Shown here one piece after another: positions 17,325 through 26,987 of a stretch of 64,000 nucleotides of DNA. Made by a program: the position numbers and the translations under genes. Each line of letters begins with the position of its first letter. Positions within the stretch are counted from its first letter, which is position 1. The notes below the pieces were generated by a model that saw only the letters and a program-made list of their open reading frames with translations, did not search any database and was not told the origin of the DNA. Origin of the DNA: Desulfoscipio geothermicus DSM 3669 (GTDB taxonomy: Bacteria; Bacillota; Desulfotomaculia; Desulfotomaculales; Desulfallaceae); NCBI RefSeq assembly GCF_900115975.1, contig NZ_FOYM01000007.1, positions 62,001 through 126,000 of the forward strand, given 5' to 3'.

Positions 17325-18371
17325 TTGACCGATAAGCAAAAAGCGCTGGATAATGCTCTGGCGCATATTGAAAAACAATTCGGCAAGGGGTCAATAATGA
17401 AGCTGGGCGAGGCTTCGGCCAGGATTAACGTAGAAGCTATCCCCACAGGTTCCTTATCTTTGGATATGGCCCTTGGTGTGGGCGGGGTGCCCCGGGGCAG
17501 AGTAGTGGAAATATACGGACCGGAATCCTCTGGTAAAACCACGGTGGCCCTGCATATTATCGCCCAGGCGCAAAAAACAGGCGGAACGGCGGCGTTCATC
17601 GACGCCGAGCACGCTCTGGACGCCAATTACGCCCGCAATATCGGCGTGGATATCGCCAATCTGTACGTTTCACAGCCCGATACCGGGGAGCAGGCGCTGG
17701 AGATTGCCGAACACCTGGTGCGCAGCGGAGCTGTGGATGTGGTGGTTATTGATAGCGTGGCCGCCCTGGTGCCCCGGGCGGAAATTGAAGGTGAAATGGG
17801 CGACGCGCATGTGGGCCTGCAGGCGCGGTTGATGTCACAGGCCTTGCGGAAGTTGACCGGCGTCATCAGTAAGTCCCGCTGTACGGCCATATTCATTAAC
17901 CAGTTACGGGAAAAGGTGGGGGTCATGTTTGGCAGCCCGGAAACGACCCCCGGCGGGCGGGCGCTCAAGTTTTACGCCTCTGTGCGCCTGGATGTGCGCA
18001 AAATTGAGAGTTTAAAGCAGGGCACCGACGTTATTGGCAACCGTACCAGGGTGAAAGTAGTCAAAAACAAGGTGGCTCCCCCCTTTAAACAGGCCGATTT
18101 CGATATCATGTACGGCGCCGGCATATCCCGGGAGGGCTGTATTCTGGATGTGGCCGTGGATCTGGGCATAATTAACAAGAGCGGCGCCTGGTACTCGCAC
18201 GGGGATGAAAGGCTGGGTCAGGGCCGGGAAAACGTCAAAGAACTGTTGAAAGAAAGGCCTGAACTGGCTGAGGAACTGGAAACCGCAGTACGCCGGAAAG
18301 TCGGCTTGCCTGCTCTGCAGGGTAAACTGGCACAGGCCGCTGCCGAGGCCGGCGGCACCAAGGTGGAATGA
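17325..18371 (+). CDS. recA: Recombinase RecA
   Basis: Strand-exchange and SOS coprotease protein. It is 348 residues, the standard length, without an intein. Walker A GPESSGKT is at about residues 66-73, Walker [11 protein letters not shown] near 140, loop L2 [16 protein letters not shown] near 195-210, followed by the C-terminal domain. The start is TTG 17325 behind a G-rich ribosome-binding site. It has its own sigma-A promoter with a LexA box. recX follows after four bases. Confidence 0.97.
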
Positions 18372-18375
18372 TAAA

Positions 18376-18870
18376 TTGACGCTTGCAGAACAGGTGCAGG
18401 TGGCCAGGAACAAATGTTACCGGTTACTGGCCTTACGGCCCCGGACGGAATATGAATTGCGAAGCCGGTTGCATGAATCAGGTTACCCTGCCCGGGTTAC
18501 GGACCGAGTACTGGCGGATTTGAAAGAAAAAGGATTGATAAATGACGCGTTGTTTGCCAGGGACTGGGTTAGTTGGCGTCTTTGTTCCAAACCGGTGGGC
18601 AAGGCATATTTACGGGCGGAGTTACGCCATAAGGGTGTCGAAAGAAGTATAATCGAAAACACTTTGGCTGATTACGATGACGAAAGTGAAATGGAAAAGG
18701 CGCTGGCGTTGGCGCGGAAAAGATTGGCCAGGAAAGGCGACGGGCCGGCTCTGCGTAGACTGGCTGGTTTTTTGGCCCGGCGGGGATTTTCCAGCCATGT
18801 GGTGACTAAAGTTTTACGTTTACTTGCTGATGAAGGCCGGATAGATGGGGACCGGGTAGATATATCTTGA
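18376..18870 (+). CDS. recX: Regulatory protein RecX
   Basis: Modulates RecA filaments. It is 164 residues with tandem three-helix repeats: RPRTEYELRSRLHESGY, then ARDWVSWRLCSKPVGKAYLRAEL, then a third near the C terminus (LAGFLARRGFSSHVV). TTG 18376 begins four bases after the recA stop, so it shares the recA transcript. The -35 element of the next transcription unit overlaps its last codons. Confidence 0.88.
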   Translation: MTLAEQVQVARNKCYRLLALRPRTEYELRSRLHESGYPARVTDRVLADLKEKGLINDALFARDWVSWRLCSKPVGKAYLRAELRHKGVERSIIENTLADYDDESEMEKALALARKRLARKGDGPALRRLAGFLARRGFSSHVVTKVLRLLADEGRIDGDRVDIS

Positions 18871-18895
18871 CATGACAGCAGAAAAAAAGTACAAT
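18867..18895 (+). promoter_or_regulatory. Strong sigma-A promoter for the RNA at 18902
   Basis: Perfect TTGACA (18867-18872), 17-bp spacer, TACAAT (18890-18895). The -35 covers the recX stop codon. Confidence 0.88.
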
Positions 18896-18901
18896 TAATG
18901 C

Positions 18902-19128
18902 TGGGAGAAAATAGAATTGGAATTATCCGGTTTTCGGTTCACATATATTTTAAAATTATATATGTACTGGGGTACCAGGAAGCATTCCTTGGAACGACAG
19001 TGTGATATTGCTAACCACTGCGTTATCTTAGCCGTGCCAGGTGGGTGTTTTTGCTGACCGTTGCCGGGGACAAACTGTTTTCCAGGTCCGATTCTATTTC
19101 TCACCGAGTTACGCTCGGTGTTTTTTTT
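18902..19128 (+). ncRNA. Structured RNA: stand-alone small RNA or attenuator leader of rny
   Basis: A roughly 200-nt non-coding transcript is defined by the consensus promoter at 18867-18895 and the terminator at 19102-19128. Its ends pair. Positions 18905-18921 (GAGAAAATAGAATTGGA) and 19087-19102 (TCCGATTCTATTTCTC) form a 16-bp closing helix with one bulged A and one G-U pair. Inside are TCCGG/CCGGG, a second short helix CGGTT/GACCG, an AT hairpin (18941-18965), AGGAA/TTCCT, CAGTG/CACTG and GGAC/GTCC. Size and closed ends resemble 6S RNA, but the interior looks multi-branched. The alternative is a riboswitch-like leader whose terminator gates RNase Y. Existence is well supported; identity is not. 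Confidence 0.65.
19102..19128 (+). terminator. Rho-independent terminator between the structured RNA and rny
   Basis: CACCGAG (19102-19108) and CTCGGTG (19114-19120) with a TTACG loop, followed by eight Ts. Confidence 0.92.
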
Positions 19129-19178
19129 GTTAACTGAGCAAACTTATCATAAAGTTATTGAAGTTAGGAGGTGACACA

Positions 19179-20726
19179 TTGCAGGCCAACCTGACAATCA
19201 CTATAATTGTTGCAGCAACAACAGCTCTTATTGCCTTCGGGGTTGGGTATCTGGTAAGAAAACTGATTGCCGAATCCAAAATTGCCTCCGCTGAAGCTCT
19301 GTCCAGAAAAATTATTGAAGAGGCGCAAAAGGAGGCCGAAGGTAAAAAACGGGAAGCAATACTTGAAGCAAAGGAAGAAATTTTAAAACAACGCAATGAA
19401 ATGGAGCGTGAAAACAAGGAACGAAGAACCGAGCTACAAAGATTGGAACGCAGGCTGGTACAAAAGGAAGAAACACTGGACCGTAAAGTGGAGAGCATAG
19501 AAAAAAAAGAAGATATTTTAAACCGCAAGGAAGCGGAGGTTGATTCGCTGAAAGCCGACCTTTCCAATGCATACAGTCGCCAGGTGGCTGAGCTGGAAAG
19601 GATATCGGGGTTAACTTCCGAAGATGCCCGGCAGATATTACTGACCGATATTGAAAAGGAAATTCAGCATGAAGCCGCGCTGTTGATCAAGGAGATAGAA
19701 AACAAGGCCAAGGAAGAAGGAGAAAAACGGGCCAAGGAGATTATTACTTCCGCGATCCAGCGGTGCGCCGCCGATCATGTGGCCGAAACAACGGTGGCCG
19801 TCATACCTTTGCCCAACGATGAGATGAAAGGCCGGATCATCGGGCGTGAAGGCCGGAACATCAGGGCGTTTGAAACGGCAACCGGTATAGACCTGATTAT
19901 CGATGATACTCCAGAAGCCGTTATTTTATCCGGTTTCGATCCCATACGCCGGGAAGTGGCCCGGATCGCCCTGGAAAAATTAATCGTTGACGGGCGTATT
20001 CACCCGGCCCGGATTGAGGAAATGGTGGACAAAGCCCGCAAAGAAGTGGACCAGCAAATCCGGGAAGCAGGCGAACAAGCCGTATTTGAAACCGGTATTC
20101 ACGGCTTGCATCCTGAATTGATAAACCTGTTGGGCCGCCTTAAATTCCGCACCAGCTACGGGCAGAATGTTTTAAAGCACTCCATTGAAGTGGCCCATCT
20201 GGCGGGCTTGATGGCCGCCGAATTGGGTATGGACGTACAGTTGGCCAAACGGGCGGGACTGCTGCATGATATCGGCAAGGCGGTGGACCACGAGGTTGAA
20301 GGGCCGCACGTGGCCATAGGGGTGGAACTGGCGCAAAAATACCGGGAAGGGAAAGAAGTTATTCATGCCATTGCCGCGCACCATGGTGACGAAGAGCCCA
20401 AAACAATTGTGGCGGGTTTGGTTCAGGCCGCGGATGCCATTTCAGCGGCACGCCCTGGGGCGCGCCGGGAAACGCTGGAGGCCTATATCAAACGCTTGCA
20501 AAAACTTGAGGAAATTGCCGGTACCTTCGACGGGGTCGAAAAATCATACGCTATCCAGGCGGGACGGGAAATTAGAATTATGGTCAAGCCCGAAAAAGTT
20601 GACGATTTAGGTTCTATAAAGCTGGTTAGGGAGATTGCCAAAAAAATAGAAAATGAATTGGATTATCCCGGTCAAATAAAGGTTATGATTATTCGCGAAA
20701 CGAGAGTTGTTGATTACGCTAAATAA
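19179..20726 (+). CDS. rny: Ribonuclease Y
   Basis: Membrane-anchored endoribonuclease that starts bulk mRNA decay in Firmicutes. It is 515 residues. One N-terminal transmembrane segment (about 5-25) is followed by a long charged coiled coil (about 30-190), a KH domain with [15 protein letters not shown] (about 215-230), and an HD domain with [10 protein letters not shown] (about 365). TTG 19179 is chosen because AGGAGGTGAC lies nine bases upstream; an in-frame TTG seven codons earlier has none. No promoter is visible between the preceding terminator and the gene, so expression depends on read-through or on regulation of that terminator. Confidence 0.95.
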
Positions 20727-26689: not shown

Positions 26690-26728
26690 TAATTTACTGC
26701 TATATAAGAAATGAATATTGGGGAATAT

Positions 26729-26932
26729 CGGGTTCACAGGTGCCCCGGTCATGGTACGGTTTTAGCGACCGCACCCGGGGAGAATAGGGAATCAGGTTAA
26801 GCCTGAGCGGTCTCCGCCACTGTAAACGGGTAGTTTACCTTAGCTAGTAGTTCCTAAATGCTAGTGCAAGCCACTCTGCGGAGGAAGGCGTAAGGTTGAC
26901 AGTGACCCGTAAGCCAGGATACCTGCCTGTGA
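26729..26932 (+). promoter_or_regulatory. Cobalamin riboswitch
   Basis: About 200 nt with the class hallmarks: CAGGTGCCCC at the 5' side, GAATAGGGAA (26781-26790 region), CCGCCACTGTAA, GCCACTCTGCGGAGGAAGGCG, and the B12 box AAGCCAGGATACCTGCC near 26911-26927. It binds adenosylcobalamin and shuts off the downstream genes when B12 is plentiful. It precedes the cob operon directly. Confidence 0.96.
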
Positions 26933-26987
26933 ACGGGCCAGCACCCTGCGTGAGAAAGGGAGTGGCTTTCTTTGATTGGCGGCGCTG

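Follow-up and report, generated by a model that had tools for sequence, protein, structure and literature searches.

The region in front of rny, the gene for RNase Y, in Desulfoscipio geothermicus DSM 3669 is probably a cis-acting transcription-attenuation leader that sets the level of this enzyme, judging from its sequence and that of its relatives. The most likely use of such a leader would be RNase Y homeostasis, and it would probably act by feedback. As the same layout recurs before rny in many Firmicutes families, it is likely to be a built-in, as yet uncatalogued control of the enzyme rather than a free small RNA. RNase Y is thought to initiate most mRNA decay in these and many other Gram-positive bacteria, and its level needs tuning.

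The rny locus and its predicted leader

The window analyzed here is a stretch of 64,000 nucleotides (contig NZ_FOYM01000007.1, positions 62,001 to 126,000). The following features make up the locus, in window coordinates.

17325-18371: recA, upstream of recX
18376-18870, + strand: recX, whose 3' end overlaps the leader promoter
18867-18895, + strand: sigma-A-type promoter, TTGACA-17-TACAAT
18902-19128, + strand: predicted structured leader RNA, from the start inferred from the -10 box to the end of the T-run
18903-18921, + strand: 5' strand of helix P1, GGGAGAAAATAGAATTGGA, where the family is most conserved in sequence
19087-19105, + strand: 3' strand of P1, TCCGATTCTATTTCTCACC, whose last bases double as the start of the terminator stem
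19102-19128, + strand: intrinsic terminator, CACCGAGT-TAC-GCTCGGTG followed by eight Ts
19166-19174, + strand: Shine-Dalgarno sequence of rny, read directly
19179-20726, + strand: rny, encoding RNase Y, the linked downstream gene, with a TTG start

The TTG at 19179, which follows the strong Shine-Dalgarno sequence AGGAGGTGA, is best read as the start of rny, and 37 nt separate the T-run from this ribosome-binding site. The overlap between the 3' strand of P1 and the terminator in the window was deduced from constrained folding together with comparison.

A sequence-only reading of the window had proposed a TTGACA-17-TACAAT promoter, a helix joining both ends of the noncoding region, and a terminator with eight Ts, and all three were recovered. 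The promoter (TTGACA at 18867-18872, a 17-nt spacer, TACAAT at 18890-18895) matches the consensus at 11 of 12 positions, is the top promoter-like site within 3.5 kb, and predicts a transcription start at about 18902. The arms of P1 at 18909-18921 and 19087-19099 (13 nt, 92% complementary) can be extended by eye as GGGAGAAA / UUUCUC(A)CC as far as the terminator base; GGGAGAAAATAGAATTGGA at one end of the RNA is paired with TCCGATTCTATTTCTC(A)CC at the other. The terminator stem at 19102-19120 has eight pairs and a 3-nt loop, with the eight Ts at 19121-19128. The whole leader of 227 nt folds at -77 kcal/mol, with a z score of -4.67 relative to dinucleotide shuffles, or -2.77 without the terminator hairpin. 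Terminator-like sites were equally common in shuffled sequence and in the window, and for this reason the statistics of the one sequence make a modest case by themselves. What decides for the putative leader is comparison: its position, sequence, and covariation are conserved across many genomes.

No conserved open reading frame was found in the 227-nt leader. A leader peptide, suggested by a conserved GGGAG...UUG, was also considered across the family and rejected: open reading frames preceded by a Shine-Dalgarno sequence occur in 39 of 66 leaders, with neither length nor sequence conserved.

The leader is tied to rny

A DNA search of 100 relatives gave matches in 56, and rny loci drawn from genome contigs supplied further homologues; by motif search and tblastn, these sit between recX or recA and rny. 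A covariance model, R1, was built from 24 homologues and run on 113 whole genomes of the class. It matched in 95 of them, in single copy in 94; the remaining genome (G082) has two leader matches and two rny pieces. When match coordinates were set against those of a protein search for rny, all 96 class matches lay on the same strand as rny and immediately upstream of it, with a median gap of 43 nt (range, 11 to 207). The training sequences of R1, from about two dozen genomes, had been chosen as rny-adjacent, but because whole genomes were searched the linkage is not built into this result. The six class genomes without an rny match also had no leader match. Among those with rny, one (G018) has no leader, and two (G031 and G041) have the promoter without the CCGAG hairpin.

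Outside the class, a broader model (R2, built from alignment A6) found matches in 51 genomes. In 49 of these, about nine of which hold training sequences, the match lies upstream of rny, and they span 22 families. The matches away from rny (G241, G485, and a second, weak one in G025) have E values of ~6e-4 to 6e-3 and are probably due to chance. Plasmid records, searched as well, gave no match.

The leader also keeps its place when its other neighbors change. In one lineage (L030, L031, L150, L155), recA and recX are absent upstream, the open reading frames found there resembling by eye superoxide dismutase or a phosphoglycerate-mutase-like protein, and the leader still precedes rny, which argues that it follows rny and not the upstream genes. 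At the Desulfotruncus locus, nearly 1 kb lies between recX and the leader, with no such interval between leader and rny.

In the homologues, the T-run is typically 30 to 40 nt from the ribosome-binding site, and the top promoter score in the gap between terminator and rny was no higher than in shuffled gaps. This agrees with the earlier suggestion that rny has no promoter of its own after the terminator. Transcription from the leader promoter, like that from recA-recX where these genes are upstream on the same strand, must cross the terminator to reach rny. As expected of a cis-regulatory leader, the element occupies a fixed same-strand site upstream of a single gene, with no intervening promoter.

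It is possible to see the terminated leader instead as a trans-acting small RNA, binding for example RNase Y or its partners, with rny a neighbor fed by leaky readthrough. An abundant, stable RNA of ~200 nt is indeed what the strong promoter, the closed ends, and the sound terminator would predict, and the sequence of P1 is conserved beyond what pairing needs. We nevertheless find this reading unlikely, given that none of the 96 class matches and two of the 51 outer genomes depart from rny, that the leader stays with rny where recA and recX are not adjacent, and that its length runs from 91 to 416 nt around a poorly conserved interior. A cis leader may also act in trans.

One relative (L170, in G001) has a leader lengthened by a GC-rich insertion resembling the terminus of a small mobile element, with promoter, P1 strands, and terminator retained.

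Covariation and conserved sequence

That relatives would lack covariation had been named in advance as grounds for giving up the structure; instead, P1 and a second helix, P2, covary strongly. Across 76 distinct sequences aligned to R1, standard pairs fill 86.6% of cells, and both sides of a pair have changed in 178 cells, compared with 59.6 ± 5.5 for shuffled and 49 to 60 for slid partners; this alignment and a 34-sequence one were fitted to the structure of the model, which favors that structure. Double changes occur in 23 of 35 pairs, including all eight inner pairs of P1 and all five of P2, and compensatory changes were likewise found in the 34-sequence subset. An unfitted MAFFT alignment (A2) gave the same trend, with 22 both-side cells versus 8.5. 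RNAalifold on a sequence-only alignment of all members recovered P1 and the terminator alone, and a model from a well-aligned subgroup outperformed that alignment.

In the outer part of P1 the sequence itself is conserved, the 5' strand more so than the 3' strand. Of 81 leaders, 68 have UAGAA within their first 30 nt, where 7 are expected from shuffling and 2 from its rate elsewhere in the leaders. In the Pelotomaculum/Desulforamulus group, the interior holds the conserved unpaired motifs AUAGAU, CCAAUA, and GGACAA together with a covarying P2. A conserved pseudoknot between the CCAAUA and GGACAA regions was plausible in Desulforamulus and was rejected after failing by eye in other groups.

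P1 versus the terminator

In predicted folds for most of the class, P1 and the terminator look mutually exclusive. When the terminator was forbidden in silico, at a median cost of 4.8 kcal/mol among the homologues, most of them instead joined the CC from its 5' arm to a GG at the very start of the RNA; the position beside this pairing varies (G.A, G.G, U-A, C-G, or U.G). In the window, the lowest two pairs of P1, both GC, draw on bases that begin the terminator stem. The terminator is thermodynamically favored in most homologues, with a median probability of 0.99, and P1 competes for 2 to 3 pairs. The competition goes further in a lineage missed by R1 (g20), where P1 of two members, CAACGGUAGAAAA with UUUUCUACCGUUG, takes in the whole terminator arm. 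The predicted probability of the terminator is 0.02 and 0.001 in these two and 0.05 in a third, which captures CCG. In three members of another lineage (L171, L174, L175), GGCAGAA pairs with UUCUGCC, whose GCC is shared with the terminator. The antiterminator reading is not universal, however, because P1 and the terminator of several outer families are adjacent with no shared bases.

On the attenuation reading, polymerase would start at the near-consensus promoter and make a leader of ~200 nt, the ends of which would pair in a long P1 helix abutting the intrinsic terminator. Most transcripts would stop there, and a minority would read through into rny; we infer that termination is partial and regulated. 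In the class, the terminator-stem bases beside P1 could find an alternative partner in the RNA's 5' end, so that a longer or stabilized P1 would weaken the terminator and let polymerase pass, P1 serving as the antiterminator.

What would act on P1 may be the enzyme itself. B. subtilis RNase Y favors GA within AU-rich RNA that has structure downstream (PMC11780869). The conserved 5' strand is AU-rich and contains GA, and as this is the character that RNase Y prefers, the simplest guess is that the enzyme feeds back on the leader; that it acts on this strand is a guess too. More tentatively still, the leader could represent a new RNA family, spread through the phylum and devoted to RNase Y, whose P1 would combine two roles, as a sensor that RNase Y or RNase III recognizes or cuts and as the antiterminator. 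The level of RNase Y would then be set through termination. We regard this fuller proposal as possible but doubtful.

Could the arrangement be a fixed, unregulated attenuator, in which promoter and terminator hold RNase Y at an unchanging low level and P1 does no more than shield the 5' end? The minimal form of the leader, at 92 nt, consists of just P1 and the terminator, its interior missing, and most terminators are predicted to form strongly, as this idea would have it. Most of the class, however, has a long interior with a covarying P2, and g20 has full exclusion between P1 and terminator; we therefore judge a fixed attenuator very improbable.

The sequence-only reading had offered, as one of two options, a riboswitch-like leader whose terminator controls RNase Y. 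Control of rny through the terminator gains from the obligate linkage, the covariation, the lack of a gap promoter, and the P1/terminator overlap. The other part, riboswitch-like in the sense of a ligand-binding aptamer, is doubtful: the interior is poorly conserved between families and absent from the 92-nt form, whose existence argues that an aptamer core is not essential. A riboswitch proper, whose interior would bind a small molecule, stabilize P1, and thereby block termination, would explain why P1 overlaps a terminator arm, as in the layout of an ON riboswitch, and the unpaired motifs and P2 of the Pelotomaculum/Desulforamulus group would suit it. Against it also stands the linked gene, which is always rny, with no metabolic set. 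Overall this explanation is improbable, although the subgroup with the conserved interior might hold a ligand-binding riboswitch, which the minimal form could not.

The leader is not a known housekeeping RNA

The alternative option in the sequence-only reading was a free RNA, 6S-like in size and layout. The likeness is real in that 6S RNA (RF00013) is ~200 nt long with paired ends and its own promoter, and the leader has that size and closed, rod-like ends. The 6S covariance search that had been suggested was run: the model gave no match to the leader above its gathering score and found two genes elsewhere in the genome, G000:C54:106985-107167 (103.7 bits) and G000:C40:258176-258358 (65.7 bits). 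A free-standing RNA is expected of 6S, yet the leader is never found away from rny in the class. Rfam 15 gave no credible match to the leader up to E = 10, chance matches aside. The leaders of 20 homologue loci had no match either; a tRNA in L030 was the only one at those loci. The SRP RNA lies elsewhere in the same genome (213.8 bits), and SRP and other housekeeping RNAs were rejected as identities for the leader. That the leader is 6S or another housekeeping RNA in disguise is thus scarcely credible, and the 6S-like option was abandoned.

Elsewhere in the window, a cobalamin riboswitch (RF00174, 90 bits) lies on the + strand at 26721-26944.

Relation to known control of RNases

The E. coli pnp and rnc leaders are cut by RNase III. 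Together with that of rne, they resemble the rny leader in being structured 5' leaders of RNase mRNAs used in feedback; they control mRNA stability, not transcription termination, and no homology with the rny leader is expected. The stem-loops of the E. coli rne 5' UTR are set against rny in PMC10303841. As described there, B. subtilis RNase Y down-regulates its own mRNA by cutting it, including within the 5' UTR, which is noncoding and 160 nt long, with the strongest cleavages in its first 50 nt (PMC10303841). The likeness to our case is that a noncoding 5' UTR of the rny mRNA takes part in self-control; the difference is that control in B. subtilis runs through cleavage of the mRNA by RNase Y and then RNase J1, and the passages concerned describe neither an attenuating terminator nor a conserved closing helix, unlike the leader here (PMC10303841). 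As far as we found, it is in B. subtilis, and by mRNA cleavage, that RNase Y autoregulation has been worked out.

The leader shares with terminator-type riboswitches and attenuators of Firmicutes its own promoter, a P1 that closes the 5' end and, in most of the class, overlaps a terminator arm, and a short gap to the gene. It differs from the riboswitches in having no known ligand or essential conserved aptamer core, and in having rny as its one gene. We found no paper on an rny leader RNA in open-access text, and the family is missing from Rfam. As far as could be checked, then, the structured attenuator leader is a known kind, and the rny leader family is new. A promoter-P1-terminator leader conserved before rny in many Firmicutes families would add a transcriptional layer to the control of RNase Y, and the opposition of P1 and terminator offers a concrete, testable handle on the control of the main decay enzyme.

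Promoters and terminators across rny loci

In 65 of 66 homologues, the leader promoter matches 11 of the 12 consensus positions; the pattern used to collect these required TTGAC and TAnnnT, which biases the minimum of the promoter score and leaves the value of 11 of 12 unbiased. In 53 of 79 rny loci, some of them from Negativicutes, the 150 nt preceding rny contain a hairpin of the form CCGRG-N3-9-CTCGG, where 0.1 are expected, and overlap with P1 explains this conservation of the terminator stem sequence only partly. In Negativicutes (L061, L063, L065, L067, L071), a GCCGAGT...ACTCGGC hairpin ~20 to 60 nt before rny is followed by TTTACCC (UUUACCC in the RNA), a weak U-tract with no T-run, and may serve a role other than termination.

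Each of the 79 rny loci (L033-L112) carries a near-consensus promoter, TTGAC-N18-20-TAnAAT, no more than 450 nt ahead of rny. In the Dethiobacter/Syntrophomonadaceae loci (L085, L088, L091, L094), a strong promoter and a leader are followed before rny by a different terminator, AGCTGTG...CACAGCT, so that the layout is alike without sequence similarity to the CCGAG hairpin.
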